Shown one piece after another: positions 3,311-42,938 of a stretch of 43,751 nucleotides of DNA (the first letter of the stretch is position 1; each line of letters opens with the position of its first letter). The notes beneath the pieces were generated by a model that made no database searches, was not told where the DNA came from, and was given only the letters and a program-made list of their open reading frames with translations. Position numbers and translations under genes: made by a program. This DNA is from a virus, in IMG/VR virus record IMGVR_UViG_3300036832_000251, positions 1 through 43,751 of that record; one strand, written 5' to 3'.

Positions 3311-3326
3311 GAAGGAGGAGAGCTAG

Positions 3327-3782
3327 ATGACCACCATCAGAGCAACACGCCAGGACACCTGGCTGGTCAACCTGTGGGTCGAGCACCCGCACAATCCGGG
3401 CCACATGGTCGATTACACGGTCTGGGATACCAAGACCGGCGGCGAGATCGACTCAGAAGAGAACCTGTACTACCCTGGCGGGATGAAGCCGGCATACTCG
3501 CTCGGCGGTCGTGTCAACCCCGGCCAGCTGACGCTGTCGAGGAACTACCGACTGCAGCGAGACCACGACAACATCCAGCAGCTGATCGACGCCGCGGGCA
3601 AGTCGGCCGTCAAGATCAGCATGCGGCCGATGGACAAGTACAAGGTGGCGTACGGTAGCCCCATCATCTGGACGGGCACGCTGAAGACGGTGACGCTGCC
3701 GGAGCACAACTCGATGAGCACGACCGATCCCGCGATGATCGAACTCGTCTGCTCCATCGACGCACCGCCGACGAGCACGTAG
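3327..3782 (+). CDS. Tail tube protein
   Basis: This 151-residue protein is the likely tail tube subunit that forms the inner channel. Size and position fit: contractile tubes of this type are about 140-170 residues and follow the sheath gene. The sequence is beta-rich with conserved-looking GGRVNPGQLTLSRNYR and, near the C-terminus, WTGTLKTVTLPEHNSMSTTDPAMIELVC, which resembles tube proteins of the T4-like gp19 group. A strong site AAGGAGGAG precedes the ATG at 3327. It is followed by the tail assembly chaperone, the expected order. Confidence 0.85.
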   Translation: MTTIRATRQDTWLVNLWVEHPHNPGHMVDYTVWDTKTGGEIDSEENLYYPGGMKPAYSLGGRVNPGQLTLSRNYRLQRDHDNIQQLIDAAGKSAVKISMRPMDKYKVAYGSPIIWTGTLKTVTLPEHNSMSTTDPAMIELVCSIDAPPTST

Positions 3783-3801
3783 CACGAGAAGGAGGGAGCA
3801 A

Positions 3802-4365
3802 ATGGATCTTCCAGAGACGGAGGAACAACCGCTCGTGCACGAGATCACGAGCGACGAAGTCAACGCGGAGCGGTCGCTCGCGGATCAACTCCGCGAGCGC
3901 CGCGCTGAGATCGCCCAGGCCAAGGAGGTCTTCATTCCTCTGACCGGGTACGAGCAGTACAACGTCACGGTCAAGCATCGCCTGGTGGACAGGGTAGAGG
4001 TCGAGAGGATCGGCCGTAGGGTCATCGCCGAGACGAAGGATCGCGGGGAGCGCAACATGCGCATCCTCATCGACACGATCATTCATTCGACTCTCGGGTT
4101 CTACGTTCAGCCGGATGGAGTCGAGGAGCCGGAACTGATCGAGAATCCGGCGACACATGTCGGCATCCTGGGGTGGGACGAGTTCGCGCATTACCTCGGC
4201 TTGAGCAACGGAGATCCGAGTGAGGAGCCGAACATCCGGGGTGCGTTGTACTGGGTGTTCGGGAGTAACGAGTTCGCCGTCGGGCAATATGGGATCATCC
4301 TGAACCGCTGGATGGGTAACACCGGGCTCAAGGTGGACGAGGAGTTCCTGGGGGAAATGCTTTAG
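3802..4365 (+). CDS. Tail assembly chaperone, short form (G-like)
   Basis: This 187-residue acidic protein lies between tube and tape measure and is taken to be the G-type chaperone that coats the tape measure during tail assembly. The N-terminus is helix-rich and charged (SLADQLRERRAEIAQAKEVF), and the middle contains GYEQYNVTVKHRLVDRVEVERI. AAGGAGGGAG precedes ATG 3802. The -1 frame is open from 4320, after a TAA at 4317, through 4562, so the gene also makes a longer G-T product by frameshifting near 4350-4357. Unlike lambda, no T-only start with a good ribosome site is visible. Family assignment is from position and frame structure. Confidence 0.82.
   Translation: MDLPETEEQPLVHEITSDEVNAERSLADQLRERRAEIAQAKEVFIPLTGYEQYNVTVKHRLVDRVEVERIGRRVIAETKDRGERNMRILIDTIIHSTLGFYVQPDGVEEPELIENPATHVGILGWDEFAHYLGLSNGDPSEEPNIRGALYWVFGSNEFAVGQYGIILNRWMGNTGLKVDEEFLGEML
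4350..4357 (+). other. Probable -1 programmed ribosomal frameshift site
   Basis: The run GGGGGAAA lies six bases before the zero-frame TAG at 4363-4365. The zero frame reads CTG GGG GAA ATG CTT TAG. A -1 slip re-pairs GGG perfectly, while GAA moves to GGA, so the site is not a perfect X XXY YYZ heptamer. The shift must occur between 4320 and 4362, because the -1 frame is closed upstream by TAA at 4317, and this is the only homopolymer in that stretch. Confidence 0.7.
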
Positions 4366-4562
4366 AGGTTCCCGATGAGATCACAGCCGCAGCCGCAGTC
4401 GCTCTCTCCGGACAGGATCCGATCAAATTCCTGGAGGAAACCGATTCCGAGAGACGCATGCAAATGTCAGCGGTCGCGAATGAGTACCAGAAACTGCTGC
4501 TGCTCCTCAACGATGACCTCGCAGCCAAAGTGATCAACAATCTCTCCGAGGCTATGAAGTAG
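4356..4562 (+). CDS. Tail assembly chaperone, T-like extension by -1 frameshift
   Basis: This is the -1 frame extension of the chaperone, giving a G-T fusion of about 253 residues. The T part is 68 residues and starts at NALEVPDEI. It includes a small helical region with DPIKFLEETDSERRMQM, then YQKLLLLLNDDLAAKVINNL, and ends at AMK. The stop TAG at 4560-4562 overlaps the GTG start of the tape measure. In phages the longer form binds the tape measure and the tube protein while the short form coats it. The start and extent of the extension depend on the slip site, which has not been measured. Confidence 0.75.
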   Translation, partial: NALEVPDEITAAAAVALSGQDPIKFLEETDSERRMQMSAVANEYQKLLLLLNDDLAAKVINNLSEAMK

Positions 4563-23231: not shown

Positions 23232-26200
23232 TCACGGTGCCATCACCCACATGTCGGTCACATAGATCTCTCTCGCCGAACGCCATCCGGGCTTAACACC
23301 CCTCACGAGGAGCACATCCTCATGAAGCTTGATCTTCCAGAGCAGCTTTTTGAACGTTTGATACTTCCAGCGTGAGACCCGGAGACTCAGCAGGTCAGTG
23401 CCGTCATAACCTGCGATCAGCATCCATTCATTTAGCTCTGGATTGCGCACCGTCGCCGGATCTAGCTCCTCGCCGGTTCGGGCGCGGTTGACTTCAAAGA
23501 TGTCGCGGAGGTTACGGTGGACGGGAATCCCGATCCAGACAACCCCCAGATCTTCGCCGCGCTCGTATGGAACCTCGATGGCCTTATGTGTCGGCCGTGG
23601 TAGCCGGTTCCCGTCCGAGTCTTTCATTCCTCGCCTGATCCCTTTCTTACAGGACGCGATCATTCGATCCATCGTCTTGACTCCGAACGGATCTTCGGCG
23701 GTCGCGTGAGCTACGAGCTTGTCAATCGTCTTCGGCCCGATCCCCTTGACCTCGATTAGCGATGGCCAGTCGAGCCGCTGCATGCGAAATGTCTTCGCCT
23801 TCTCGTCCCGCCACTCGATGATCTTCTGCGCCATCGCGGGGCCAACGCCGTCGATCTGATCGAAGCCGGGACGTAGCTCGTAGCTGGTCTCGGCTTGCCA
23901 GGTCATTCCTGACATCTGTATGTCGTAGGGAAGGATCGTGAACCCGTGTCCGATCGCGTCCCGCAGCATGATCGTGTGTGGGTCGATCTGCGCCTTGCTG
24001 ATCGCACTCGCCTTCGCGTTGGCCCCGGATCCGCCGCCGCGACCGTCAGCGCGGTCGAGCATCGCGGCGTAGAAGATCTCCGGGTGGTGCTGCTTCCACC
24101 ACATAGTCCACCAGGCGATGTAGCCGTACGAGACCGAGTGTGCCGCGTTGAAGGCGTACGAGCCGCTGGTCGTAAGGTCGCCCCAGATCGAGCGGGCAAG
24201 CTCCTTGTCAATCTGCGGGAAGTCGGTTCGCTCATGGAGAGTGCTCGCGCCGTCCCAGAACCGCTCCCATTGCTTGTTGAACTCCGCGTCTCCGAGCTTC
24301 CGCGAGATGATCTTGCGAATGTAGGCGGCGTGCGTCCAGTCGAAGTTTCCGATCTCGCGGACAATCTGGAGGATCTGCTCCTGGTAGACTATTTGGAACT
24401 GGGTGAATCCGGTGATTCCTTCAAGTGCAGGGTGACGTAGATGGGGTTGCTTTTCCCCTCGCTTGATATCAACATAGTCTGCAACTGCTCCATTATGGAG
24501 AGGGCCTGGTCGGGCGAGGGCAGTGATATGGCAAACTTCATTGAAATCGTCCGGCCGTACCGCGCCACAGACCATCCGGCAGGCTCTACCCTCAAACTGG
24601 AAGATTCCGACGACATCGTTCTCCTTGAATCCCTGGATCGTAGGTTCGTCCTCAATGGGGATCTCATAGAGGAACGATGCCGGCTTATCCAGCTGACGAC
24701 ACATTTGTATGAGGGCGTCGAGCGCCGAGACACCGAGCAGGTCGATCTTGAGTACGCCGAGGTACTCCGCGTCATACTTGTCGATGGCGACGACCTGAAT
24801 CGTTCGCTTGTTGACCTCGCGCTCTAGGATGGCGGTGACCTCTGTGATCGGATCGTTAGAGATCGCCACCCCGGCTGCGTGAGTGCCGAAGCCTTTAACG
24901 TTGCCCTCTAGCTCGGTCGCGTCCAAGATGTTCGGATAGCGCTCGACTACGCCTGCTGCCTGCTCGAACTGCTCGATGGTATCGAGGATGGTCGCGCTCG
25001 CTCGCAGATCGCCCGACGACCGCTCCAGGAGCACGTCTTTGATCTGCTCTACTTCGTATTGCGGAATGCGGTGGACGCGTGCCACGTCGTCGAGGGCGAG
25101 CTTGGATTTGAAAGTTTGGAAGGTTCCAATTTGACTGACTTGCTCGCGTCCGTACTTCGACACCAGATAATCAACGACCTCTCCCCGCCGGGTTGATTCA
25201 AAGTCAAGATCAATGTCCGGTAGGTCAAACCGGGTAATGTCGATGAATCGCTCGAAAACGAGATGGGGGAACGCCATCGGGTTGACCTCTGTGATACGGA
25301 GTAGCCAACAGACCAGGCTCGCCGCAGCCGACCCGCGCGCAGGCCCAACTCCAATGTCGGAGTCTTTTGCGAATCGTACAGCGTCAGAGACAATGAGAAA
25401 GTAATCACTGAATGCCTTCTCCTCGATGATTGATCGCTCATGACGAAGTCGTTGCGCGTACTTCCGTCGTTCCGAAAGAGGTAGATCGTCACATCCTCTA
25501 AACTTCCATCCTTCCTTCAGCCAGTGCTCCCAGACTTCCAGTGAGGAGGCTGGCCTGGAGTCTTCGTCTGGCGCTTTGATTCCCCAGGGTCTCATGTCCT
25601 TGGCATTTCCGGGATAGCTCACCATCGGGAGCCGCGGAAGCTCGACCGTACAATCCTGCGCGATCTCTTCGGTCATGAGTATCGCGTTAATGGCCTCCTG
25701 TCTCGTCAGCCCGGTCGCGACTAGACGACGCAGCAGGTCACGGTCGTTCGCGGGCGGGCAAAGCTCCGCGGCGTAGCCCCAACTCTTCGCTAGATCCTCG
25801 GGTGTGCTCTTCCCGCCGCTACGGAGCGCATGGAGTACCTTCTGTAGCTCGCTGTCAGTCGGCAGCGTGTAGTGGCAATCTAGCGTGGCTACGAGCGGGA
25901 TCTTGAGTTCACTGGCGATTCTCGCAAGCTGAGGGTTAGCCTTGCGCGTACCTTCCAGTTCAGGGAAAGCCTGAACCTCGATGTAATAATCATCACCGAA
26001 CGTTCGACGGAACCTTTGTGCCACTCCAAGCGCACGACGGTAAGACGCAGCATCCGGTTCGATCCCTTTACCGCCCATGAGCGATGTATAGAGCAATGAT
26101 CCCGTGCATCCAGATAAGACAACGAGACCGGCCCGATGTTCCGCGAGCATCTTTCCACTGACGGTGGCCTCATAGTAGAACCCTTCCATGTAGGAGCGGG

Positions 26201-26657
26201 AGACGAGTTGAAGGATGTTCCGGTACCCGTCTTGGTTGCGCGCGAGGATTGTGAGGTGGTTCTTCAACTGCTGCCGCCGCTCGGGGTCGATCTCGCCGGT
26301 GTATAGCTCGATCCCGAAGATGGGCTTGATCCCGCCTCTCTTCGCCGCCTGCTCGAACTTCACGTGCGACATAACGTTCCCGTGCTCGGTTAGGGCGAGG
26401 GCCGATCCGTTGAGTTCGGTGATCCGACGTACATGTGCTTCTGGTAGCTGGAACCCGTCGAGGAACGAATACGTTGAATGGTGATGCAGAGAGACGAACC
26501 GCATTTGTCTCGTGAGCCGCGGATTACGATGAGTACGTCTTTCCTTCCGAACCATGGCAGGCGTATCCTCATGGTCGCACTCCTCCTTCTTTTTGCCGAA
26601 CGCGCCGAGCTTGATCCGGTCGAGACTTTTCTTGTCTTCATTCCAATGGCTGCTCAT
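23232..26657 (-). CDS. dnaE: DNA polymerase III alpha subunit, DnaE type
   Basis: This is a 1141-residue replicative polymerase. Start ATG 26657 overlaps the methyltransferase stop (ATGA); a longer frame would overlap that gene and is rejected. About 50 basic residues precede the PHP domain (MRFVSLHHHSTYSFLDG, LTEHGN, GIKPIFGIELYTG). The polymerase palm has GVGPARGSAAASLVCW and PDIDLDF at 480-486, then GVLKIDLLG, so the catalytic Asp residues are present. Helix-hairpin-helix motifs (DQIDGVGPAMAQKI, EVKGIGPKTIDKL) and an OB-like end follow. In PHP the usual TDHGN is TEHGN, so editing ability is unclear. Accessory clamp-binding sites cannot be judged by eye. Confidence 0.93.
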   Translation of the reverse strand: MSSHWNEDKKSLDRIKLGAFGKKKEECDHEDTPAMVRKERRTHRNPRLTRQMRFVSLHHHSTYSFLDGFQLPEAHVRRITELNGSALALTEHGNVMSHVKFEQAAKRGGIKPIFGIELYTGEIDPERRQQLKNHLTILARNQDGYRNILQLVSRSYMEGFYYEATVSGKMLAEHRAGLVVLSGCTGSLLYTSLMGGKGIEPDAASYRRALGVAQRFRRTFGDDYYIEVQAFPELEGTRKANPQLARIASELKIPLVATLDCHYTLPTDSELQKVLHALRSGGKSTPEDLAKSWGYAAELCPPANDRDLLRRLVATGLTRQEAINAILMTEEIAQDCTVELPRLPMVSYPGNAKDMRPWGIKAPDEDSRPASSLEVWEHWLKEGWKFRGCDDLPLSERRKYAQRLRHERSIIEEKAFSDYFLIVSDAVRFAKDSDIGVGPARGSAAASLVCWLLRITEVNPMAFPHLVFERFIDITRFDLPDIDLDFESTRRGEVVDYLVSKYGREQVSQIGTFQTFKSKLALDDVARVHRIPQYEVEQIKDVLLERSSGDLRASATILDTIEQFEQAAGVVERYPNILDATELEGNVKGFGTHAAGVAISNDPITEVTAILEREVNKRTIQVVAIDKYDAEYLGVLKIDLLGVSALDALIQMCRQLDKPASFLYEIPIEDEPTIQGFKENDVVGIFQFEGRACRMVCGAVRPDDFNEVCHITALARPGPLHNGAVADYVDIKRGEKQPHLRHPALEGITGFTQFQIVYQEQILQIVREIGNFDWTHAAYIRKIISRKLGDAEFNKQWERFWDGASTLHERTDFPQIDKELARSIWGDLTTSGSYAFNAAHSVSYGYIAWWTMWWKQHHPEIFYAAMLDRADGRGGGSGANAKASAISKAQIDPHTIMLRDAIGHGFTILPYDIQMSGMTWQAETSYELRPGFDQIDGVGPAMAQKIIEWRDEKAKTFRMQRLDWPSLIEVKGIGPKTIDKLVAHATAEDPFGVKTMDRMIASCKKGIRRGMKDSDGNRLPRPTHKAIEVPYERGEDLGVVWIGIPVHRNLRDIFEVNRARTGEELDPATVRNPELNEWMLIAGYDGTDLLSLRVSRWKYQTFKKLLWKIKLHEDVLLVRGVKPGWRSAREIYVTDMWVMAP

Positions 26658-27190
26658 GAACGACTCCATGGGGTCGGGTAGCGAAGTCCGCGCACTCGCT
26701 TCGCCAATTGGAGGAGAACGCAGAGATTCTGCCAGCGGGTACTCGCGACCATCATCCAGGTAATGTCCAGATCCCACTTGTGCCCATAGCCGCTGTCGTA
26801 GCCCGTCGAGTAGAACGTATCCTGCCAACCCTCTTCCGTCCAGTAGCTGCGGTGGTCAGGAGCTTGGAACGCGAGCGGACACATCGCATGCGGGACGGCG
26901 ATGTTCGCTACGCTGCCTGGCATCAGGACGCGCTCGATCTCCCGCAGCATTTCGTGTGCGTCCGAAGGGCTGAGATGTTCGATGAAGTGATAAGCGTGAA
27001 CGACGCTCACCGATTCGTCCTTGATGTCGAATAGGAATGGAGCTTCCCACTCGGGCCGGTCGAGGTTGATCGCTCCGTCGATGGGCGCTCGCCCCGATCC
27101 GAGGTTGAGGATCGGCCCTGGATGAAGCGGGTCGAGGAGATGACCAGGATCTCGCTTGATCGCGTTCGTGAATATCTCCGCGAAATCCAT
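26654..27190 (-). CDS. Class I SAM-dependent methyltransferase-like protein
   Basis: This 178-residue protein has the class I fold pattern: motif I ILNLGSG, the acidic strand AINLDRPEWEAP, SVVHAYHFIEHL, an ALREIERVLMPG-like segment (EMLREIERVLMPG) and VANIAVPH. It is like phage or sugar-cluster methyltransferases of about this size. Substrate is unknown; it could modify a small molecule, protein or nucleic acid. It starts with ATG 27190, overlapping the upstream TGA (TGATG), and its end overlaps the polymerase ATG. The cluster with FAD and HAD genes suggests a shared pathway. Confidence 0.75.
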   Translation of the reverse strand: MDFAEIFTNAIKRDPGHLLDPLHPGPILNLGSGRAPIDGAINLDRPEWEAPFLFDIKDESVSVVHAYHFIEHLSPSDAHEMLREIERVLMPGSVANIAVPHAMCPLAFQAPDHRSYWTEEGWQDTFYSTGYDSGYGHKWDLDITWMMVASTRWQNLCVLLQLAKRVRGLRYPTPWSRS

Positions 27191-27504: not shown

Positions 27505-28153
27505 GTTGCTCCATCCATGAGTGGATTAGCTGTCCAATGTTCGCGACGAACCACTCCATATCGTGCTGATTGTACATCATGTGGATCGCGCGGTTGTAGT
27601 TATTCTTGATGAGGTAGACGCAGCGAAAGCCGATGGCCTTCTCCGCGGCCCAGAACATACCGAGCAGATCGTCTATGACGGCGACGATCCGCCCTGGGTC
27701 TACGCGCTCGACTAGCTGCGCGTACTTGTCCTCATCGAAGAGCATCCCGTCATACTCGATCTCGTGCCGGCGTAGCCACTCGACTGTATCCGGGACGATG
27801 TTGTCGAGCGAGAGGTATGGCCGCGTGGTCGTGACCCAAAGCTCAGCGCCGGTCGCCTTGATCTCGCGACAGAGAGACGCAGCCAGCGGGTAGATCGGCA
27901 TGGTTCGCTTCATACCACCCTGGCGGTAGGCGAGCTTCGCGTCATGCCAATCCTTCTCCGACCGCCCGAACATCTCACACCACCATGTCTTGAATGAGAC
28001 TGAGCCGTCGTAAGAGTAGTTGTTGTCGCTAGGGCCGATGTTGTGGTACTCCGCGGCGAAGCGGAGGAAGTGGCCGTGGTAGTCGCCCAGAGTGCCGTCG
28101 ATGTCTACGGCGACGACCGGCCTGATCGGATTACCGCAGTTGGAGCAGAGCAT
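27479..28153 (-). CDS. HAD-superfamily phosphatase-like protein
   Basis: This 224-residue protein begins at ATG 28153. A longer frame would cover most of the neighbouring oxidoreductase gene and is rejected. HAD motif I is VDIDGTLGD (Asp 17 nucleophile, Asp 19). ELWVTTTRPY provides motif II Thr, and later VAVIDDLLGMF gives a motif IV-like acidic pair. Proteins of this kind in phages include 5'(3')-nucleotidases and kinase-associated phosphatases. An N-terminal CSNCG pair could bind metal. Substrate is unknown, but the neighbours suggest nucleotide metabolism. It overlaps the upstream gene by 23 bases. Confidence 0.78.
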   Translation of the reverse strand: MLCSNCGNPIRPVVAVDIDGTLGDYHGHFLRFAAEYHNIGPSDNNYSYDGSVSFKTWWCEMFGRSEKDWHDAKLAYRQGGMKRTMPIYPLAASLCREIKATGAELWVTTTRPYLSLDNIVPDTVEWLRRHEIEYDGMLFDEDKYAQLVERVDPGRIVAVIDDLLGMFWAAEKAIGFRCVYLIKNNYNRAIHMMYNQHDMEWFVANIGQLIHSWMEQHEPDISQL

Positions 28154-28937
28154 CCTTGACCTGGTTGTAGGTGTGGTGGGTGAAGACGTGCTTGTCCCAG
28201 CGACCAAAGCGGCCGATGCGGACGATCTGTGGGAGACAGTCGCACGTAGTCGAGAGAGGTTTGGTACCCTTATCAACTCGCAATCCTTTCTCTTGCTCCC
28301 CGAACCCCCGCTGGATATAGCTGGGGACGTAGTACGGTGAGTATTCCCAGGACTGGTATCCGTTGATGAGCGAGTATCGGTACCACGGGTCGTATCCATC
28401 CTTGATCGGCAACCCATTGTAGTACATCATATTGACTGGTGATCGTCGCCCGACCTCGGCTCCGTGTAACACCCAGATGGGGATAGACTTGAATATGTGC
28501 CTGGGCTTCTTGCAGAGAACCGTCGCGGGCAACGAGGAGAACGTCATGTCGTGTTCTGCGGCGATCTCTTCGATCCATCGTCTTGTCAACAACCTGTGGT
28601 CGATCCGGTGGCCGTAGAGATTCCAGAGCCTCTCGTACGTCGCGCCGAGACTCCAACCGTACGTCGGCCCGGAGTCAAACTTGTCCCAGGAGACCGGCGC
28701 TTCTGCATCACCATAGACGTTCCTGGCGTACCCTTCGCGGGTGCCTAACTTAACGACCTGGATCTCCATCCTCTCTCCGGGGCAGATGCCAGGGATCGGC
28801 TCATGGAGGTACATCGCGCCGAACATGTGACTCTTCCTCTTCTCTGAGAAGATGGTGAAGTCGATGCCCTCCGTCGCAACGGCATGCGACGCGATTAGAC
28901 CGGCGGGGCCGCAACCGAGGATCGCGACTCGGGTCAA
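28131..28937 (-). CDS. FAD-dependent oxidoreductase-like protein
   Basis: This 268-residue protein opens with a dinucleotide-binding motif (VAILGCGPAGLIASHAV, GxGxxG with Ile/Phe strands and FTIF next to it). The rest has many aromatic residues, CPGERMEIQV, two Cys in TTCDCLPQIV, and ends with IGRFGRWDKHVFTHHTYNQV. It looks like a reduced FAD or NAD(P)-dependent enzyme. The sequence lacks other motifs I recognise. ATG 28937 overlaps the upstream stop by four bases. It may act with ThyX, HAD and methyltransferase genes in nucleotide or DNA modification, which is inference. Confidence 0.72.
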   Translation of the reverse strand: MTRVAILGCGPAGLIASHAVATEGIDFTIFSEKRKSHMFGAMYLHEPIPGICPGERMEIQVVKLGTREGYARNVYGDAEAPVSWDKFDSGPTYGWSLGATYERLWNLYGHRIDHRLLTRRWIEEIAAEHDMTFSSLPATVLCKKPRHIFKSIPIWVLHGAEVGRRSPVNMMYYNGLPIKDGYDPWYRYSLINGYQSWEYSPYYVPSYIQRGFGEQEKGLRVDKGTKPLSTTCDCLPQIVRIGRFGRWDKHVFTHHTYNQVKDALLQLR

Positions 28938-29215
28938 ACGAAGTCCACTTCCAGGGCGATGCCCTTGATGGTCATGATCTTCTGCTTGTCCATGCTCTGT
29001 AGCTGGAAGCTGATCGACTGGAGCGACCCGCTGCCGAGATCTCCAACCACGTCGGTAACGGAGATGATCTTCCAGCCGATGATCTCGATGTTACGCCCGG
29101 TCGAGCGGAGGATTGACTGCTCGATGTCCTGCGCGCCGCCGCCCCAGATCGACTGCGCCGGACTCTCGTCATCCTCGCCGCCCTCGAACCTGACCCTGCT
29201 CTTCTCGTCGTTCAC
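28934..29215 (-). CDS. Small hypothetical protein beside the primase-helicase
   Basis: This 93-residue acidic protein has RVRFEGGEDDES at the N-terminus and a beta-rich middle (ISVTDVVGDLGSGSLQSISFQL) that ends with TIKGIALEVDF. I do not recognise it. Start ATG 29215 overlaps the primase-helicase stop by four bases, and its own stop overlaps the oxidoreductase start. A small replication accessory protein is possible but unsupported. Confidence 0.62.
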   Translation of the reverse strand: MNDEKSRVRFEGGEDDESPAQSIWGGGAQDIEQSILRSTGRNIEIIGWKIISVTDVVGDLGSGSLQSISFQLQSMDKQKIMTIKGIALEVDFV

Positions 29216-31974
29216 CAGCGAACCTCCCTCAGTAGCTCGTGGAGCGTAGGCTCCACGATGTTGTCGCCCCCACCTTCCTTCCGTAGCATCCTCGCGCCGT
29301 AGAGCTTATTGATGATTGAGTTGGCTTCCTCGCGTGTCACGTTCATCACTTCTTCCAGATCTTGCCTCCGAAATCGGCTTGTGCTGCGCAGGAGCTTCGC
29401 CAGGCCGCGCCTCTCCAAGAGGAACCGCCTGACCTCGTCGCGGTGCTCGATAGCTTCCTCGACATCAAGCAGGCGCTCGCGGGAGCGCGCCGCGTAGCCG
29501 AGTGTTGGCATTTCGTAGAGGATGTCAATGAACCGTACGGCATCTTGTACGTGCTCCTTCTGAACGACGATGTTCTCAAAGTTCTGGTCGGTGCTGAATG
29601 TTCGGGCCGCGATAGATACTGCGAGGCGAGCGATCTTGATACGGGCGTTCGCCGCTTGAATGAGCGGCGGATCCTCAACGTACTTATCGCCCATTGCGTT
29701 CGCCTCGTCATAGACTGTGTTCTCCGCGCCCTGCTCCCAAATGATCTGCTCCGGCTGCCGAGTCCAGACCCACATCAGAAGCGTATGGCAGGCTTCGCTC
29801 GTGTACTTGAGGTCGCCTACGTCGATCCGTTTGTTGTACTCCTCGGGATCTACGTCCGACTTGGAGAGGGCCATCGCCAGGTCGAAGCGGGCGATGTCTT
29901 CGGGATTCCCGATCAACGGACGGATCGCATCTACGCCGTACGTGTACTGATCCATTCCGCCATGGCGAGGATTTCCGAGCCAAAGCAGCCGCGTCCGAGC
30001 GAACGTAACCTCCTGTTGGATCTTCGTTAGCCGGGCCATCCCCGACGACCGCACATCGGACATCTTTGAGATCTCCTCAGGGTGGAGGCCGGATAGCTCG
30101 TCGATGATGACGATACGTCGGTCGTTGAGAGGGATAACACCCCAAGTAACGGCCCAATCTCTTCCACCAATCTGTTGCAGGCCTCCAACCAGGCCAGCAA
30201 TAGTTGCCGCTTCTCCTCCGACGACCTCTCCTGCGCCATAGTGGCGTACAAGTCGTTCAGCAGCCTCAGACTTCCCCGTGCGAGTATCTCCAACGATGAG
30301 AGATTCGAGCCATCCTCTGTGGACAAGCTGACCTCCGAAGTTGAACGAGAGCGGCGAATGGAACGTCAGATCCATGACTGCGTGCATCTCAGGGCGTCCG
30401 ATGATCTTCGTCACGTGACTCGCTAACACGCGCTCGATCTCTCCGAGCTTCTTGAGCGGACTCTGGCGATGATGAGGCTGGAATCTCTTCATCAGCTTGA
30501 TTGCCTCGGCTGTCAAGTCAAACCAGTCTACGCTCGTCGTCTGTTGCTGAACGTCCCAGCCGAGAAACTCGTTGCGCTGATCTCGCGGTGAAGGGTAGAG
30601 CGCGCCGGTGACGACGACGGTACTGTTGGCGAGAGTATCGTGGCGACCGACCGACGTGATCTTGATTGTCGTGTAGTCGCGCGCCTTTGTCCCGTCGGCA
30701 TGGTCGATACTCGGGCGAGCGAACAGTTGCTCGACTGCCTGATGATCCTCGACTTCGATCTCAAGCTTGTTACACTTTTGCGCGCCGTACTCCAGACGCA
30801 GCATCTCGCGAATCTGTAGGTCGGACGAGTCGATCATGTCGAGGATCCTCGGGCTAGTCGGCAAGATCACCAGGTCACCTTTTCCTTCGACCGTATTCAT
30901 CGGACAGACCTGGCACTTTGCTCCGGCGTCCTGGGTACAGTTGAGCTTGACCTTCCACGGGATCGAGTAGCCCGGTTCTTTCTTGCCCTTGATCGTTACC
31001 TGGAGCTTGACGGGGTCTCCGACGCGATGCGCGTCGAACGAGTCGAGTACCGTGATGATCGTCGGCTCGCCCTCTGGCTGCTTCTGAAGCGTTTGCGCCT
31101 CGGCTAGAAGACGCTCAAACTCAACTGCGTCAAACTCCTGCCAGAAGTCGCTGAGATCCTTCCCGTGCTTGGGGACGACCTCATATGGCAGCTGGACGAT
31201 CCGAACGTCTGCGATCCTGCTGAGGGCGCGAGCAATCTTCCTCGCCCCCGATTGCCCTTCCTGGTCGCAGTCTTGGCATATGAAGACGAGCTTATCCTTG
31301 AACAACGGGTTCCAGCGATGGTGCCAAGTCTTTGCCCCCGATGTACGAGTGATCGCTGGGTAGCCGTTCTGGATGGTAACGAGCGCGTCCCACTCACCCT
31401 CGCAAATGATGAGGCGCTCGGCTTCCAGTTGGCGGATCGGGTAAAGCTCGGTCACTCTCATCCCCGTTACGGATCGGATCTTGGTATGGGCGTCGGGGTT
31501 CCTGTTGTACCGCCGGACGTTCCAGATCTCGTAGTCAGGGCCGCGGACGGGGATCGTGTAGACTCCGCGACCGCGATCCCAGCCTAGCTCGTAGTCGATG
31601 ATGGTCTTGGTATGGATTCCTCGCTCGTTGAGATAGTCGCTGACGGTCTCATCGTCCAGGAGAGCGGCATTCCACCCCTTGATCTTTCCTTCGGTGATGA
31701 CTTCGTTCGCTTCGCCCCGCCGAGGAGAGCCATTCAACACTGCTCTCCCCGGCGGAACCCAACTGCTCTTCTGGGCGATCAGATCCGTGATCCTTCCCCC
31801 GCCACAGCCAGCGTGACAGAACCACTCGCCGGTCAGAGTATTGACCGACGCCGAGCGGTTCGTATCCTCATGAAGCGGACAGAGCATGTCCCATTCTCCA
31901 TTCACCCTGGCTCGCCCTATCAGGTAGGGTTTGAGTAGGCGTAGGTGTCTCTTTGAGATCGCGGACGCGGCCAC
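29212..31974 (-). CDS. CHC2-TOPRIM primase fused to MCM-like AAA+ helicase
   Basis: This 920-residue protein joins two replication enzymes. The N-terminus has a CHC2 zinc finger (LCPLHEDTN, FCHAGCGGG; Cys 32, His 35, Cys 53, Cys 57) and a TOPRIM domain (IICEGEWDALV with Glu 192; ICQDCDQEG with Asp 235/237), as in DnaG. Residues 300-485 form an OB-like part with CX7CX2C (346/354/357). Residues 530-740 are MCM-like: GDTRTGKSE Walker A (562-570), AGLVGGLQQ, GVIPLNDRRIVIIDELSG (Walker B) and EDIARFDL, which matches the SRFD arginine finger. The C-terminus resembles a winged helix. The start is GTG 31974, twelve bases after the SSB-like gene. Confidence 0.85.
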   Translation of the reverse strand: MAASAISKRHLRLLKPYLIGRARVNGEWDMLCPLHEDTNRSASVNTLTGEWFCHAGCGGGRITDLIAQKSSWVPPGRAVLNGSPRRGEANEVITEGKIKGWNAALLDDETVSDYLNERGIHTKTIIDYELGWDRGRGVYTIPVRGPDYEIWNVRRYNRNPDAHTKIRSVTGMRVTELYPIRQLEAERLIICEGEWDALVTIQNGYPAITRTSGAKTWHHRWNPLFKDKLVFICQDCDQEGQSGARKIARALSRIADVRIVQLPYEVVPKHGKDLSDFWQEFDAVEFERLLAEAQTLQKQPEGEPTIITVLDSFDAHRVGDPVKLQVTIKGKKEPGYSIPWKVKLNCTQDAGAKCQVCPMNTVEGKGDLVILPTSPRILDMIDSSDLQIREMLRLEYGAQKCNKLEIEVEDHQAVEQLFARPSIDHADGTKARDYTTIKITSVGRHDTLANSTVVVTGALYPSPRDQRNEFLGWDVQQQTTSVDWFDLTAEAIKLMKRFQPHHRQSPLKKLGEIERVLASHVTKIIGRPEMHAVMDLTFHSPLSFNFGGQLVHRGWLESLIVGDTRTGKSEAAERLVRHYGAGEVVGGEAATIAGLVGGLQQIGGRDWAVTWGVIPLNDRRIVIIDELSGLHPEEISKMSDVRSSGMARLTKIQQEVTFARTRLLWLGNPRHGGMDQYTYGVDAIRPLIGNPEDIARFDLAMALSKSDVDPEEYNKRIDVGDLKYTSEACHTLLMWVWTRQPEQIIWEQGAENTVYDEANAMGDKYVEDPPLIQAANARIKIARLAVSIAARTFSTDQNFENIVVQKEHVQDAVRFIDILYEMPTLGYAARSRERLLDVEEAIEHRDEVRRFLLERRGLAKLLRSTSRFRRQDLEEVMNVTREEANSIINKLYGARMLRKEGGGDNIVEPTLHELLREVRW

Positions 31975-31986
31975 CGTACTCGCCCG

Positions 31987-33015
31987 CTAGAACGGATCTG
32001 CGACTTTGTCGTCCACCCGGAGGGCTTCGACCATCTTGGCCTTCGTCTTCCTCCCGCTGATCTTGATCTCAGCGCCCTGCTCCAGCCGGGTGTTGATCTC
32101 GTCCTGGAGATCGTTGTCGTCCCACTGGTCGTAGTCGTCCGGCTCGGACGCTTCGCCGTCGCCGTCGCCGCTGGCTTCGCCTGCGCCGTCCTGCCAGGCC
32201 TCTGCCGCCTTCGCGAGCGCGACGATGGCCTCGATGTACTTGGCCTTCGTCTTCCGGCCTTGGACGTTGCCGGCGGCTCCGATGTCGGCCGCGTAACTCG
32301 CCAGGTCATCGGTCTCCCAGTCGCTGTAGTACGCCGCGTCCGTCCGCAGGTCTTCCAGCAACTCCGGGTCGAGCGCGCTGAACCCGTTGGAGTCGGCTGC
32401 GCCCTCGCCCTCGTTGGCGTCGTCCGCGTCCACGGTTGAGTCCTGGTCGTCCAGGATCAGATCGATGGCCTTGCTCGCGGAGAAGCGACCGGAGATCGCG
32501 AGACCACGCGACTCCAACTCCTCCTTCAGATCGTCACTCGACCAGTCGGCCAACTCCTCGCGGGTGAGCGGCTCGTCATCGCCGCCGCTCTCGGGCAGGT
32601 CGTCACCGTCTTCCTCGATCTTGCCCGGCGGGAACAGGTTGCGTGCCCGGCCGCGGTACTCGCCGTCGAGGTTGGTGTCGGCGGTGACCTTGACATTGAC
32701 CGCCTTTCCGACCTGCTTGTTCGTGTCGATGCTGCCCTTCGGCGGGAGCTTGAGCGCGTCGGTCAACTCGCGCAGCTTCCAGCCGTGGGCGGCCTCGTTG
32801 TAGTTCGCGTCTGACGGCAACTTGACGTACGTCCAGAGCAGGGCGTACTCTTCGCCGACGCTAATGGTGATCTCCAGGTCGCTGACGGGATCGCCGCCGG
32901 ACTTCTTGTCCCGCAGCGTCATCGACTGGATCTTGCCCTTGTAGAGACCCGGCTGCGGCTGTTCTCCGCCACCGCCCGCCTCTACGTTGCTGACGTCGTA
33001 CTTGACAACTGCCAC
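31987..33015 (-). CDS. SSB-like OB-fold protein with three SAP-like motifs
   Basis: This 342-residue acidic protein starts at GTG 33015, overlapping the upstream TAG. Residues 1-135 look like an OB-fold DNA-binding domain as in phage SSB-like proteins (YKGKIQSMTLRDKKSGG, DLEITISVGEEY, YRGRARNLFPPGKI). Three SAP-like helix-turn segments follow at about 158-188, 233-266 and 298-333, all opening with Trp and Asp/Glu before LK or DL and ending with a Lys-rich helix such as GRKTKAKMVEAL. Long Asp/Glu/Gly linkers separate them. SAP motifs bind DNA in other proteins. It lies directly before the primase-helicase, so it probably covers single strands or tethers the replisome. Confidence 0.75.
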   Translation of the reverse strand: MAVVKYDVSNVEAGGGGEQPQPGLYKGKIQSMTLRDKKSGGDPVSDLEITISVGEEYALLWTYVKLPSDANYNEAAHGWKLRELTDALKLPPKGSIDTNKQVGKAVNVKVTADTNLDGEYRGRARNLFPPGKIEEDGDDLPESGGDDEPLTREELADWSSDDLKEELESRGLAISGRFSASKAIDLILDDQDSTVDADDANEGEGAADSNGFSALDPELLEDLRTDAAYYSDWETDDLASYAADIGAAGNVQGRKTKAKYIEAIVALAKAAEAWQDGAGEASGDGDGEASEPDDYDQWDDNDLQDEINTRLEQGAEIKISGRKTKAKMVEALRVDDKVADPF

Positions 33016-33824
33016 TATTGCTCCCTTCTCGTTCTGCGTCGCCTCGCCGTGCTGCTTGCTACACGGCCTTTATTGATCTCTGCCATCATACCTGGCAGAG
33101 TAGGATTGACGATCTCGCCGGTTGGGAAGATCGCGAGACCGTCGCGCTTGAACTGACATTTGGCATAGTAGTTCTCGCTCGCGTTGGTATGGAGTACGCG
33201 CACCTGCCGCGTTCTCCCGCCGCGCTCGACTGTCTTGAGGTCGCCGTAGCCGACGATATTCATCATTCCCGAGATCTTCGCGGGCATCATCTTGCCCTGA
33301 ACCCAGGGCCATACGCAGGATGATGTTACGCCGTCGGTCGGCTCCCAGAAGAACGAATGGGCCGTGATGCCGAGGTTAACGACGCCCGCGCCGACCATAT
33401 GGCGAACCCATTGCCCGAGCCGCCACATATTGACTCGGTACTCGCCGCGATCTGGGCCGAATGCTTCCCGCTCTTTACGAGCCTGAGACCCTTTCGGGCC
33501 TTTGCGGTCGAGCGTGTACTCATACACGTCGTCTAGTCCTATGTCTTGGAGCAATGAGATCGAGTCGAGCCAGATCCAGTCCCAGTTCTGTCCCTCGTGT
33601 TGCGCGTACTCCAATGACTCGAAGATCTCCTCCCAGGAGCGCACGACGATCTCTTGGACGCCGCTCCCTACGATGGGGTCAACATGATCGACCGGCGGAC
33701 GTATGAGGAGGATCTTGTAATCCTTCCCGCCCGTTCCGATGAACGTCGTCTTGCCCCATCCGATGTCGGAGTGTATGAGCATGTTGACCTTGCTCGACGC
33801 TCCGGCGGGTTGGATGTTAGGCAC
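33015..33824 (-). CDS. Sak4-like RecA-fold ATPase (recombinase)
   Basis: This 269-residue ATPase has Walker A SDIGWGKTTF near residue 20 and Walker B WIWLDSISLL, plus a glycine-rich region later (VNLGITAHSFFW). It resembles the AAA_24/Sak4 phage recombinases that anneal or recombine single-stranded DNA together with a cognate SSB, which here is the next gene. The C-terminus is basic (RRRRTRREQ). The start is GTG 33824 after GGAGGGAGC, and the stop overlaps the SSB-like start by one base. Confidence 0.8.
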   Translation of the reverse strand: MPNIQPAGASSKVNMLIHSDIGWGKTTFIGTGGKDYKILLIRPPVDHVDPIVGSGVQEIVVRSWEEIFESLEYAQHEGQNWDWIWLDSISLLQDIGLDDVYEYTLDRKGPKGSQARKEREAFGPDRGEYRVNMWRLGQWVRHMVGAGVVNLGITAHSFFWEPTDGVTSSCVWPWVQGKMMPAKISGMMNIVGYGDLKTVERGGRTRQVRVLHTNASENYYAKCQFKRDGLAIFPTGEIVNPTLPGMMAEINKGRVASSTARRRRTRREQ

Positions 33825-33838
33825 GCTCCCTCCTCATT

Positions 33839-34240
33839 TCAACCGTATTGTTCTACGAAATCACGCATATTTGTCCAACAGCCCTGTTGACGCTCGACCA
33901 TTCCCATTCGCCACTTGAAGTGGCGCCAGTCAATATCGCCCTCCTTTACGGCTAAGAGGAACTGGTCAATCGGAATCAGCGGATGACCCAAAGCGTCGAA
34001 CATCTGTAGTGCGCCGTCCCTCTCAAACCATTCTCCGCGAATGGCATAATCGCTTAGCAACTCGTGGATCTCCTGTTCGTGCCCGGCATGCCCGCTAATC
34101 GTCCCATGTAATACCAGATCAAAGGGGCAATATGTTTGGATCGCAGCCAGTCGAGCTTCTGGCGCTCCGCGTGTATGTCCGACCTTGATTGGCCCTTCGA
34201 CCAAGTGGCCTACGAAGTAGACATATCCCAGGAAACTCAT
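33839..34240 (-). CDS. MUG113/T5orf172 GIY-YIG nuclease-like protein
   Basis: This 133-residue protein begins with GYVYFVGHLVEGPIKVGHT, followed by EARLAAIQTY, and has later EIHELLSDYAIRGEWFER. The pattern fits the MUG113/T5orf172 branch of GIY-YIG proteins, which are often small phage nucleases. ATG 34240 overlaps the upstream stop by four bases (ATGA). It lies between the PD-(D/E)XK nuclease and the Sak4-like gene, so it may process DNA in recombination. It could also be a mobile homing enzyme. Activity has not been shown. Confidence 0.75.
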   Translation of the reverse strand: MSFLGYVYFVGHLVEGPIKVGHTRGAPEARLAAIQTYCPFDLVLHGTISGHAGHEQEIHELLSDYAIRGEWFERDGALQMFDALGHPLIPIDQFLLAVKEGDIDWRHFKWRMGMVERQQGCWTNMRDFVEQYG

Positions 34241-35382
34241 TTCGTCTCTCCGACGTAGACCTCATGGGCCTCGTACGGATCCCACGGCTTACTGATCAAG
34301 CCGCGCATTTCCTTCCAGTCTGCGCCGATCTCGTCTAGCTCGCAGAAGTCAAACGCCCAGCAGCCTGGGCAGGTGAACTGACCTTGATTTTTGTACGCGA
34401 CCGGCGGCGGCGATCCGTCTTCCTGCCGGCCGACCGCGCGAATGGCCTGCATGTCCGCGAACTCGGCCAAGACCTGTTCCCGCGCTCGCTCGCGCTCGTT
34501 GAAGTCGCGCCAGATCGGCGTCCGCAGGAAGTACGGTGACGGCTGCTTCTTGGAGACGGAGCCGTCTTTGTTGAGCGAGAATCCGTCGTTGTCCTTCGGT
34601 CTCTCGTCCGGGAACGCCTTACGCAGATGGTTATACATCATCCCGGCGGGCTTCTGGTTGGGCTTGAGCAGACCCTTCTCGTAGATCCAATCGAGTCCCC
34701 AAGTCCAGTAGCCGGTCGCCTGCGAGTCGAGTGAGAGGTATTGAACGTTGATCGCCTTCGCCGTCTTATGATCGACGATGTGGAGCTTCTTGGTGATCCG
34801 GTTCCGCCAGACTCCATCCATCGTCCCGACGTACCAGAACCAAGGCTCGGCGTTCTGCTGCGCCGCTGCGGGATGGTTCGGATCGACCGTCCACGGCTTA
34901 TAGACGAGTTGCTGGAACGTTTGCTCGGTGACGACGACCTCCCATTCGCTGTCGTCGCCGTAGTGCTTGATGTAATGGTTCAGCATCGCCTCGCCGAGAT
35001 CGCCCGCCTCAGCCCAGGTCTCGTCCTGTTCCAGATCATCTACGCGGAAGCCAAACTCGCCCTGCGCCTTGATCTCGGCTTCGTAGTGCTTGGCGAAGCT
35101 CTTAGCCGGATGCGGGCCGCGCTTGATCCCCGGTTTGTAGTAGTCCGCGAGTGCCATATGTACGAGCGTCCCGAACCGGAGAGGAGGCAGATCGTGCTTG
35201 GGGTGGAGAACCTCCTCAAACTCCATCCACCACTTCCAGCGACAGCGCTTAAACGTTCCGCGCTCGCTTGTCCGCAGCATTGGGAGACCGTCTACCGTTG
35301 AGGCACGCGGGTGGCTGGCGCGTCGGCCGACGGTCTCCCGATGCGCGGAGCGTTGTGCTCTCGTCTTGTTGCGAGTTACCAT
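34237..35382 (-). CDS. Fe-S PD-(D/E)XK nuclease (Cas4/RecB-like)
   Basis: This 381-residue protein is a PD-(D/E)XK nuclease. It has RFGTLVHMALADYY, GTMDGVW and HIVDHKTAK (motifs II and III with Asp and Lys), then SQATGYW. Cys 47 (KRCRWKWW) and Cys 338/341/347 (CPGCWAFDFC, C-x2-C-x5-C) fit the Cas4/AddB 4Fe-4S cluster. It probably processes DNA ends during replication or recombination, alongside the Sak4-like gene. The start ATG 35382 is preceded by TAGGAGGGAG. The basic N-terminus (about 30 residues) is an extension. It is the first gene after the non-coding region. Confidence 0.85.
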   Translation of the reverse strand: MVTRNKTRAQRSAHRETVGRRASHPRASTVDGLPMLRTSERGTFKRCRWKWWMEFEEVLHPKHDLPPLRFGTLVHMALADYYKPGIKRGPHPAKSFAKHYEAEIKAQGEFGFRVDDLEQDETWAEAGDLGEAMLNHYIKHYGDDSEWEVVVTEQTFQQLVYKPWTVDPNHPAAAQQNAEPWFWYVGTMDGVWRNRITKKLHIVDHKTAKAINVQYLSLDSQATGYWTWGLDWIYEKGLLKPNQKPAGMMYNHLRKAFPDERPKDNDGFSLNKDGSVSKKQPSPYFLRTPIWRDFNERERAREQVLAEFADMQAIRAVGRQEDGSPPPVAYKNQGQFTCPGCWAFDFCELDEIGADWKEMRGLISKPWDPYEAHEVYVGETK

Positions 35383-35739: not shown

Positions 35740-35952
35740 TCACGGCGGGGGCAACTGGCGCTGCCGACGCCTTGCACTCGATGAGAACCACTTATCAAGG
35801 TCTTCGAGATCCTCTTCATGGATCACTTCGCCCTCGACGTATTCGGGTGCATCGAGTGGCGGGTGGTCTCTTTTCCAGTTGTTCCATCCTGATATCAGCC
35901 CGCAGATCGCTCCGAGCGCCGCCGCTATGTACTCAGCTACGTGGAGAGCCAC
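35740..35952 (-). CDS. Small membrane protein after the SNF2 helicase gene
   Basis: This 70-residue protein starts at GTG 35952, overlapping the helicase stop by 20 bases, after AAAGGCGTATC. A hydrophobic segment (AEYIAAALGAICGLISGW) is followed by an acidic region (EGEVIHEEDLEDLDKW) and a basic end (ARRRQRQLPPP). The layout is that of a small single-span membrane protein. It is the last gene before the terminator. Function is unknown. Confidence 0.6.
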   Translation of the reverse strand: MALHVAEYIAAALGAICGLISGWNNWKRDHPPLDAPEYVEGEVIHEEDLEDLDKWFSSSARRRQRQLPPP

Positions 35953-37723
35953 GATACGCCTTTGCGATCTGCCGTCTGAGATCCAGGATGTTCTTGTTGA
36001 TGTCGAACTTCTCGTCGTTGACCTTCTTGATGTACTGCTCGATGGTTCCGTTGCTGCGATAGACCAGCGCCGTCACCTGGTGGTGACGACTGATATCCAC
36101 CGCTCTGTCGGTCAACTGCGTCTGATCGTCTGGGTTCCAGGTCTCGTCCAGGATATGAACGTCGCTGGCCTTGCTGAGCGTGATTCCGACCCCGGCCGCA
36201 GCCGTCACCAGAACCGCAACTCGCACTTTTCCAGCCTGGAAATCAGCCTGAATCCTGTTGCGCTCCCGCTGATGAACCTTACCAGAGATGATCTCACACG
36301 GTATGCCGTACCGATTGAGATAAGCGTGGATCATCTCCGCGGTCTCGCGGAACTGGCTGGCGACAATCGCTTGGTCGTCGCCGTCAGGATCGTCTACGTC
36401 AATGCCCCGCTCTGCCAAGTTCTGGAGCAGATACGGGATCTTGCCGCATTCCTCAGTCGCCTTGACCTTCATGTTGATGTAGCCGGTCTCCTCGTCTACC
36501 GAGAGAACTTCAACTGTGCACATGTGGTTCGCGAACTGCTTGAGCCGCGTGTACTCAGCCAAGATCGAAGTCGCAGTGAGGTGGTATTCCTCGATGCGAA
36601 CCTCTGCCTGCTCATGGAACGTCCGGTACTGAACCGCTTGCTTATCGGTCATGTCGCACCAAACGTCGATCCACTGAGTATCAGGCATCTGCGGCACGAC
36701 CTCCGAGCGGAGGCGGCGCACCGCGTAAGGAGCAAGGGACTCATAGAAGTCATCCTCCCGTCCAGGGACGATGCTGCCGATGGCCTTATGATTGCCCCAG
36801 GTATTCTCGATGACCAACCACTGAGCCGCCCAACGCCACTTCGACGTGAACTTCTCAGGAGCCAGCCACTGAAGAGCACCAAAGAGCTTCACTGGCTTAC
36901 CGCCCATCGGCGTTCCGCTCAAGCCGAACTTACGCTGGGCCTTCACCTTCTTGGCTTCCTTCGGGAAGCTGTTGCCAGGAACCGGCAGACCAGTCTTGTG
37001 GAACTCGTCAATCGTGAAGCTGTTCCACTCCTTGAGCTGCGGGAACGAGCCGCGCCTGACCATGTTCGCAGTAGTCACGAACCAGAACGGCTTACCATCT
37101 CGCAGACAACGCTCGACGGTTCGCTCAGCCTCGGCTTTCTCCTCTGTTGAGAGGTCGCCCGAGTACGTGACTACGGTGTGGTCTGTCCATCTCTCGATCT
37201 CCATACGCCAGACTGTATCGAGCGTAGACTTGGGTGCCACCACCAGGTGCGGGCCGTCTTCGAGATCACACTCAAAGAGAGCACCGATCACTTCGGTGGT
37301 CTTGCCCAGCCTCGGCTCCAACAGGTTGAGGCAGGAAGTCGTAGACATGAACTTGACGTCGGCTCGCTGGTACGGCCGGAACCACTTGGCTAGCTTCGGG
37401 AGCTTCTTGCTGATCTTCAGTTCCTTGAGCGGCACATCATCGAGTACCGACAAGGTCTTCAGCTTGATCTCCCTCGCAACTTCCTTCCGACCCCAGGCCA
37501 CGAGCGCCGCGCCGAGTTCAAGATTGTTGCCAAACTCTTCCCTCAGACGACGCATGATCACAAGGTCGAGCGGAAGTACCCATAGCGGCCCACCGTTGTT
37601 AGGCCCAACGAACCTCGCCCCGAGAGGCTTGAGTCGGTTCATCGCCGCTACAGCATCTTCGCTGTAGCGGAAATGAACCTCGCAGCGGTCACCGCTTTCG
37701 GTAAGCTCGGCGAACGCCTGCAT
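35933..37723 (-). CDS. SNF2-type superfamily 2 helicase
   Basis: The 596-residue protein starts at ATG 37723 (or ATG 37726) after GAGGAG; a longer frame would overlap the next gene further. It has the SF2/SNF2 motifs: motif I NLLEPRLGKTTEVIG, motif Ia LVVAPKSTLDTVW, motif II FTIDEFHKTG, motif III GLSGTPMGGKP, and in the second domain AIVASQFRETAEMI, VLVTAAAGVGITL and QTQLTDRAVDISR. It translocates on DNA in the family; in phages such proteins take part in replication or recombination. The N-terminal 120 residues are helical and novel to me. A ten-base perfect hairpin lies in the gene just after the start. Confidence 0.88.
   Translation of the reverse strand: MQAFAELTESGDRCEVHFRYSEDAVAAMNRLKPLGARFVGPNNGGPLWVLPLDLVIMRRLREEFGNNLELGAALVAWGRKEVAREIKLKTLSVLDDVPLKELKISKKLPKLAKWFRPYQRADVKFMSTTSCLNLLEPRLGKTTEVIGALFECDLEDGPHLVVAPKSTLDTVWRMEIERWTDHTVVTYSGDLSTEEKAEAERTVERCLRDGKPFWFVTTANMVRRGSFPQLKEWNSFTIDEFHKTGLPVPGNSFPKEAKKVKAQRKFGLSGTPMGGKPVKLFGALQWLAPEKFTSKWRWAAQWLVIENTWGNHKAIGSIVPGREDDFYESLAPYAVRRLRSEVVPQMPDTQWIDVWCDMTDKQAVQYRTFHEQAEVRIEEYHLTATSILAEYTRLKQFANHMCTVEVLSVDEETGYINMKVKATEECGKIPYLLQNLAERGIDVDDPDGDDQAIVASQFRETAEMIHAYLNRYGIPCEIISGKVHQRERNRIQADFQAGKVRVAVLVTAAAGVGITLSKASDVHILDETWNPDDQTQLTDRAVDISRHHQVTALVYRSNGTIEQYIKKVNDEKFDINKNILDLRRQIAKAYRGSPRS
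37645..37670 (-). repeat. Perfect 10-bp hairpin within the helicase gene
   Basis: CCGCTACAGC and GCTGTAGCGG flank a six-base loop, about 17-26 codons after the start of the helicase gene. As an RNA hairpin it could slow translation or be a protein-binding site. It may also be chance within coding sequence. Confidence 0.45.
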
Positions 37724-38021
37724 CATTGCTCCTCGTAGTCGATGGCCTTGTTCCTCTGTAGACGCCGAAGACTTCGCAGCCACGGGCCGCAAACTCCCAG
37801 AAACGATCTGGGTATGGGATCACGACCTGTCGCCTGTGAAGGTTCGACTGTGTCTTGCTCGCCTGACCGGGTGTGTCACAGACTTCGATCAACGCCCACA
37901 CTCCTGGCTTCTTCAGCAGCGGCTGTAGATGGTTAGCCCAACTCATTCCACCGCGTAGATGATTCGGCCCAGGAATGTTGCCGACGAACTCGACACCTGT
38001 TCCTACGTGTTGCTTGGGCAT
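37689..38021 (-). CDS. Hypothetical protein upstream of the helicase
   Basis: The 110-residue protein starts at ATG 38021, which follows a strong AAGGAGGGG ribosome site. A longer frame upstream would run through the tRNA-like element and is rejected. It has VGTGVEFVGNIPGPNHLRGGMSW, KKPGVWALIEVCDTPGQASKTQ, then IPYPDRFWEFAARGCEVFGVYRG and a basic tail. It looks like a small single-domain protein with two or three strands. I do not recognise it. It overlaps the helicase gene by 35 bases. Confidence 0.65.
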   Translation of the reverse strand: MPKQHVGTGVEFVGNIPGPNHLRGGMSWANHLQPLLKKPGVWALIEVCDTPGQASKTQSNLHRRQVVIPYPDRFWEFAARGCEVFGVYRGTRPSTTRSNDAGVRRAYRKR

Positions 38022-42926: not shown

Positions 42927-42938
42927 GGTACCCTCCTT
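42927..42938 (-). promoter_or_regulatory. AAGGAGGGTACC ribosome-binding leader
   Basis: The leader AAGGAGGGTACC precedes ATG 42924 by two bases. It shares GAGGGTACC with three other genes. The gap to 43005 holds a strong hairpin. Confidence 0.65.

Follow-up and report, generated by a model that had tools for sequence, protein, structure and literature searches.

A phage protein joining a DnaG-type CHC2/TOPRIM primase to an MCM-like helicase

The IMG/VR virus record IMGVR_UViG_3300036832_000251, all 43,751 bases of which were analyzed here (henceforth, the window), contains an uninterrupted frame of 920 codons with a GTG start on the minus strand (29212-31974), and the evidence supports its product being a DnaG-type CHC2/TOPRIM primase (residues 1-295) followed by a short linker and an MCM-like helicase (residues 303-920). 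For the assignment of this primase-helicase fusion, sequence profiles and profile-profile alignment agree with residue conservation, the predicted structure and the tree, and the extent of the gene rests on its reading frame and on homologues that match it in length and frame in 60 or more virus contigs. A first-pass annotation, made from the letters of the window alone, had reported a 920-residue frame at these positions; the frame is indeed there, but its strand is the minus one, the plus strand across the same interval being riddled with stops. The residues quoted in that annotation are all present, namely the CHC2 ligands C32, H35, C53 and C57, the TOPRIM residues E192, D235 and D237 and the ATPase motifs GDTRTGKSE (562-570), AGLVGG (593-598), IDELSG (624-629) and ARFDL (695-699), and its placement of the ATPase at residues 530-740 was correct. 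Most of these residues are invariant or nearly so in an alignment of 61 relatives at 35-80% identity, to which all conservation counts given here refer; C32, C53, D235, D237, K568, S569, E626, N668 and R696 are found in 61/61.

The primase half is DnaG-type, as had been proposed from the sequence, and is not a DnaG orthologue. Its CHC2-type zinc-binding domain spans residues 8-67 (31774-31953, minus strand, as for every domain below) and is recognized by AlphaFold strands at residues 27-61 and by the conservation of its ligands (C32 and C53, 61/61; H35, 56/61; C57, 51/61). The DnaG-type RNA-polymerase core that follows (residues 95-295; 31090-31692) includes the TOPRIM domain (residues 187-295) and carries E192, D235, D237 and D273; within the acidic triad, both aspartates are kept in all 61 relatives and E192 in 55. 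This core matches the Pfam family Toprim_2 above cut-off (3.4e-6), and the N-terminal half of a profile built from the 61 relatives matches only DnaG and T7-primase chains in the PDB (Aquifex DnaG, 7.8e-17), a search that gave one chance-level match besides these and the MCM chains described below. Modelled alone with AlphaFold (predicted local distance difference test score, pLDDT, 88), the primase superposes over residues 85-307 on DnaG 2au3 (Z 21.4, 215 residues, 5.0 Å) and also on the primase part of T7 gp4 (Z 18.8, 198 residues). TOPRIM runs straight into the MCM N-terminal domain, and the DnaB-interacting C-terminal domain of cellular DnaG is missing from the fusion.

The helicase half opens with an MCM-type N-terminal OB/zinc domain (residues 303-480; 30535-31068), delimited by conservation, structure match and hhalign, in which C346, C354 and C357 are present in 61/61 relatives and C401 in 59/61. 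The AAA+ motor (residues 500-720; 29815-30477), on which Pfam, PDB profile, hhalign, AlphaFold model and conservation coincide, comprises a Walker A (GDTRTGKS), a helix-2-insert region, a Walker B (IDEL), a presensor-1 hairpin lysine (K651, 60/61), sensor 1 (N668, 61/61) and an Arg finger (R696, 61/61). Conservation and the AlphaFold model place the AAA+ lid at residues 721-830 (29485-29814), with R778 (58/61) and R783 (60/61) as candidate sensor-2 arginines, and the H-H-H-E-E order of the AlphaFold secondary structure indicates a C-terminal winged-helix-like domain at residues 845-917 (29224-29442). The protein matches Pfam MCM (PF00493) above cut-off (2.6e-7). Since PF00493 also matches ComM/MoxR-type AAA+ genes of ordinary bacteria and is thus not specific for MCM, this match is no proof of MCM identity by itself, and the assignment relies instead on the N-terminal OB/zinc domain and on the tree described below. 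The C-terminal half of the family profile matches only MCM chains in the PDB, and hhalign against a profile of 24 archaeal MCMs yields 93.4% over 235 columns, in an alignment that starts TVVVTGALYPSPR at the end of the OB domain (about residue 449) and ends at the Arg finger, where ARFDL is aligned with SRFDL. In the full-length AlphaFold model (pLDDT 87.4), residues 303-829 give their best match with SsoMCM (VIA; Z 30.1, 453 aligned residues, 5.2 Å), which indicates that the OB/zinc N-terminal domain is present, and the structure matches listed for this model are all MCM, archaeal and eukaryotic. A DnaB-type helicase was rejected on an hhalign probability of 2.3%, the absence of any DnaB chain from the PDB profile matches and the lack of a PF03796 match in the window genome. 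Hence the profile placement that the first-pass annotation had suggested as a check finds MCM and not DnaB, and its call of an MCM-like helicase holds.

Several observations nevertheless weigh against this identification of the two halves. The Walker A GDTRTGKS departs from the GDPGxxK[ST] of the 13 archaeal MCMs examined, IDELSG (IDELSGL) stands where canonical MCM has IDEFDKM, and along the short Walker A-to-B stretch ComM equals MCM in hhalign (93.5%, 109 columns). In the primase half, the CHC2 match of the window protein is weak (0.013) and by itself below the Pfam cut-off, C57 is substituted in some relatives, and the second Cys pair of CHC2 is lost, with TOPRIM kept, in four loci (L106, L107, L110 and L285); as this pair is gone in one subgroup, the zinc domain is dispensable in the wider family. 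On the other hand, CHC2 matches rise above cut-off in the relatives L015-L018. The non-canonical Walker A and B signatures are the reason for classing the helicase half as MCM-like and filing it under the phage BcMCM-type MCM-like clade, not under canonical MCM. That a ComM/Mg-chelatase-type AAA+ protein has been taken for an MCM, as the ComM alignment and the breadth of PF00493 might suggest, is very improbable, given that the structural match to MCM covers the OB/zinc domain as well as the AAA+ motor, that the tree sets ComM apart (split support 93/84) and that the Pfam scan of the window protein returned no Mg_chelatase match; on these grounds of domain content, structure and phylogeny, a ComM/MoxR-type AAA+ was rejected. 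The loci devoid of the second CHC2 Cys pair (L106:3897-6905, L107:3948-6512, L110:3960-6971 and L285) lie on contigs associated with Deltaproteobacteria/Thermodesulfobacteriota, and the fusion at L098:4014-6890 has a degenerate Walker A, with GDTRTGKG in place of GKS.

The joining of two separate genes by a sequencing or assembly error, which the first-pass annotation had raised as a concern, can be set aside. Among the retrieved frames that hold the helicase module and lack a domain of the archaeo-eukaryotic primase (AEP) type, 165/170 (88 non-redundant) include the TOPRIM primase as well, and fused frames turn up in many contigs and in cultured phage genomes. The junction (residues 271-330) is moreover under purifying selection, with a ratio of non-synonymous to synonymous substitution rates of 0.08-0.38 in the pairs where it could be computed. 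Such an artefact is scarcely conceivable after this recurrence, even if one relative from a Microbacteriaceae metagenome-assembled genome (MAG; L103) does carry separate frames, for the break there falls between the OB domain and the AAA+ motor and not between primase and helicase. In L103 the primase and OB/zinc part (2679-4367) and the AAA+ part (4977-6332) lie about 610 bases apart; an Rfam search of this gap gave no group I or group II intron match, and the arrangement could be a natural split or the result of an inserted element.

The helicase half falls within the known BcMCM-type clade of phage MCMs, of which the AEP-primase/MCM fusions of Bacillus prophages are members, and the new element is the attached primase. 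In Bacillus phage vB_BboS-125 (L013) and in B. velezensis plasmid p3 (L097), an AEP (PriS-type, PF01896) is joined to a module that is colinear with residues 301-920 of the window protein over its whole length (about 620 residues, 28-29% identity). The family phrog_18685, which matches the window protein over residues 301-903 (8.5e-77), is matched end to end by the vB_BboS-125 protein and is the AEP-MCM family. No AEP (PriS) domain lies at the N-terminus of the window protein, where the TOPRIM primase stands instead. In a tree of the AAA+ region, TOPRIM-MCM and AEP-MCM rows group together in a single clade (support 100/99) and are separated from archaeal MCM, sampled here from one archaeal phylum, and from ComM, the rows of which make up a clade of their own (98/97) in a split from MCM plus phage rows that is not starred. 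The shared clade and the colinear module imply at least one exchange of non-homologous primases on a single phage MCM module. A topology that unites the TOPRIM-type rows in a clade of their own is weakly disfavoured (approximately unbiased test, p 0.028) but, given the unresolved base and the long branches, our claim is limited to a minimum of one change of primase type, without direction. A recent transfer from archaea was considered and is unsupported, since a long branch separates the phage clade from the sampled archaeal MCMs. A third primase type is found in a protein encoded on an archaeal chromosome (Ca. Fermentimicrarchaeum; L109:3768-6734), where a PrimPol (PF09250) is fused to an MCM-like AAA+ with the Walker A GDTKCFKS; the same genome encodes an ordinary MCM elsewhere (L182).

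A search for the CHC2-TOPRIM-MCM architecture, which had been suggested together with its description, reveals it to be widespread in phages and not a one-off. In GenBank, 47 phage records are covered to at least 80%, including phages of Microbacterium (Krampusvirus, cluster EF), Arthrobacter phage Wollypog, the Bacillus BSTP phages, Weizmannia phage Youna2 and Paenibacillus phages API480 and SV21. One scan of IMG/VR returned 275 relatives, and the retrieved frames comprise 165 with TOPRIM and the MCM module (88 non-redundant), 38 with an AEP and the same module (31) and none with both primases. Further members occur in MAGs associated with Melainabacteria, Deltaproteobacteria and Microbacteriaceae, perhaps as prophages or as phage contigs included in the bins. 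The gene is mostly annotated in cultured phages as 'DNA primase(/helicase)', and the paper on cluster EF labels it only 'a DNA Primase', without mention of MCM (PMC7302621). Open-access full text yielded AEP-MCM fusions only and no DnaG-type primase joined to an MCM, although an earlier mention elsewhere is possible. The concept of a primase-MCM fusion is already known, and the novelty lies in the DnaG-type version and its spread. A single 129,757-base contig (IMGVR_UViG_3300046533_000294; L029, L049) carries the fusion gene in two differing copies, and may be a chimera formed from two phages or bear a genuine duplication.

Most probably, the fusion acts as the replicative primase-helicase of the phage, replacing the host DnaB/DnaG pair at phage forks. 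Each of the 20 related virus records checked has an MCM match and none has a DnaB_C domain, seven cultured or complete phages (six TOPRIM-type, one AEP-type) included. The conservation of both active sites and the conserved position in a block of replication genes, described below, also support this role. The idea put forward in the first-pass annotation, that the protein may load and prime at the phage origin without host DnaB, is consistent with this pattern. The protein would assemble as a hexameric ring translocating 3'-5' on the leading-strand template, while six primases tethered to the MCM N-terminal tier would prime the displaced lagging strand and supply primers to the phage's own C-family polymerase. 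The hexamer and its 3'-5' polarity are predicted from the homology of the module to BcMCM, and the synthesis of primers and the position of the primase at the fork are likewise predictions. The AEP-type protein BcMCM is reported to have 3'-5' helicase, single-stranded DNA (ssDNA)-stimulated ATPase, primase and polymerase activities (PMC4538821). Two findings count against the proposed role: nothing biochemical on a TOPRIM-type fusion was found in the literature, and a search of two stretches of the window for origin-like iterons returned only short imperfect repeats.

Two other functions have to be weighed. The protein could be an origin-recognizing initiator or loader, the MCM part of which melts the phage origin and primes once before host DnaB takes over elongation. 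The C-terminal winged helix of the model fits such a role, binding to specific origin repeats is known for SCCmec helicases related to it, such as Cch2 (PMC7581432), and the absence of a phage-encoded DnaB leaves room for the host enzyme. We regard this as unlikely, because these phages carry their own replicative polymerase and recombination genes, because tethering a DnaG-type primase pays off more if every Okazaki fragment is primed than in a single event and because a complete MCM architecture is what a processive helicase has. Somewhat less likely still is a replication-restart or recombination enzyme engaged in fork repair or branch migration with the Sak4, exonuclease and SNF2 proteins encoded in the same gene block, as opposed to the main fork helicase. 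The presence of these genes alongside the fusion and the partial resemblance of the AAA+ motor to ComM go in this direction, as does the special restart role that has been suggested for BcMCM (PMC4538821); the fusion is, however, the sole primase-helicase in these genomes, in which no DnaB-type helicase was detected, and the MCM OB/zinc N-terminal domain falls outside the ComM-like stretch.

Within the proposed role as main fork helicase, the place of the primase can be compared with that in eukaryotes, where the MCM N-tier, at the front of the advancing CMG, carries the primase above a channel between zinc fingers by which the lagging-strand template exits (PMC10501992). With the primase of the fusion tethered directly to an MCM N-terminal domain that has its own Cys cluster, a CMG-like geometry is the simplest prediction. 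The primase would then lie on the fork-facing N-tier of a 3'-5' MCM ring and prime the excluded lagging strand as Pol alpha-primase does at CMG, with a strand topology opposite to that of T7 gp4 and DnaB-DnaG and a geometry preserved through the swap of TOPRIM and AEP modules; we consider the chances of this arrangement to be about even.

According to the textbook pairing, DnaG-type primases go with RecA-fold helicases of 5'-3' polarity, and AEP-type primases are the partners of MCM; the TOPRIM-MCM family breaks this pairing within one chain. In T7 gp4 and Twinkle, as in the fusion, a DnaG-type TOPRIM primase precedes a ring helicase, and the gp4 primase superposes on that of the fusion, but the helicase of gp4 is RecA-fold and DnaB-like and that of the fusion is AAA+ and MCM-like, for which opposite polarity and the opposite strand inside the ring would be expected. 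Indeed, the strand arrangement of T7 gp4 is the reverse of that proposed for an MCM-type fusion. Bacterial DnaG shares the primase core (Aquifex DnaG, Z 21.4), but DnaG and DnaB are separate proteins and DnaG ends in a DnaB-binding domain where the fusion has MCM. With the archaeal and eukaryotic MCMs (SsoMCM, Mcm2-7) the fusion has in common the OB/zinc domain, the AAA+ with insert hairpins, the Arg finger and the C-terminal winged helix, and it differs in its Walker A and B signatures, its attached primase and its separate, long-branch clade. The BcMCM-type fusions are alike in the colinear helicase half, a similar Cys pattern in the N-terminal domain, the AAA+ clade and a primase N-terminal to MCM, although that primase is archaeo-eukaryotic and non-homologous to TOPRIM. 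Finally, Cch and Cch2 of SCCmec are also MCM-like or related AAA+ helicases of bacterial mobile elements (PMC7581432), but they have not been described with a fused DnaG-type primase. What the TOPRIM-MCM family demonstrates is that primase and helicase modules move as units from one replication system to another, and the fusion offers a compact, single-polypeptide system for studying the coupling of a primase to a helicase encircling the other strand. The family is frequent among actinobacterial and Bacillota phages that are amenable to laboratory culture, and its recognition gives at least 47 GenBank phage records a more precise annotation than their present vague one.

The fusion gene lies in a minus-strand run of genes for replication and recombination. 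The upstream gene (31987-33015, minus strand, as are the next four genes named here) ends 12 bases before it and may encode an ssDNA-binding protein, as suggested by a weak, sub-threshold DUF669/SAP match; a 'putative SSB'/DUF669 gene occupies a similar position in BSTP12 and Youna2. Further upstream lie genes for a Sak4-like RecA-fold annealing protein (33015-33824; phrog_124, 1.3e-17), a PD-(D/E)XK exonuclease (34237-35382; phrog_1218, 7.8e-68, and Pfam) and a SNF2-type helicase/translocase (35933-37792; PHROG and Pfam profiles), and a C-family DNA polymerase of the DNA polymerase III alpha type is encoded at 23232-26828 (phrog_405, 2.8e-284; Pfam DNA_pol3_alpha, 1.5e-68). The order helicase, exonuclease, RecA-like protein, unknown protein, primase/MCM and, further on, DnaE is shared with Hiddenleaf (Krampusvirus) and Wollypog. 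DnaE is a single frame in the window, unlike in Hiddenleaf (L012:19850-23201) and Wollypog (L014:15513-19389), where it is in two frames, with an HNH gene between them in Wollypog. A 268-residue frame at 28134-28937 (phrog_8720, 2e-53), with a weak match to FAD/NAD-binding Rossmann folds, may correspond to the 'oxidoreductase' encoded close to the fusion gene in Hiddenleaf and Wollypog. In Bacillus BSTP12 and Weizmannia Youna2 (L015, L017) the fusion gene adjoins QueC, FolE and 6-carboxytetrahydropterin synthase genes of the 7-deazaguanine/queuosine type, which suggests modified phage DNA.

As to the phage itself, tail sheath and baseplate genes identify it as contractile-tailed and, since the window opens at neck genes, the record is probably incomplete. 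No near-identical DNA was found among cultured phages for positions 1-25000 of the window. The sequence AGGGTACC occurs six times in the window (28263, 35731, 38108, 40634, 41654 and 42927), against 0.52 expected, and in at least one case, at 42927-42934, it lies just upstream of a minus-strand ATG at 42924; it is possibly a start-associated sequence akin to that of the cluster EF phages.

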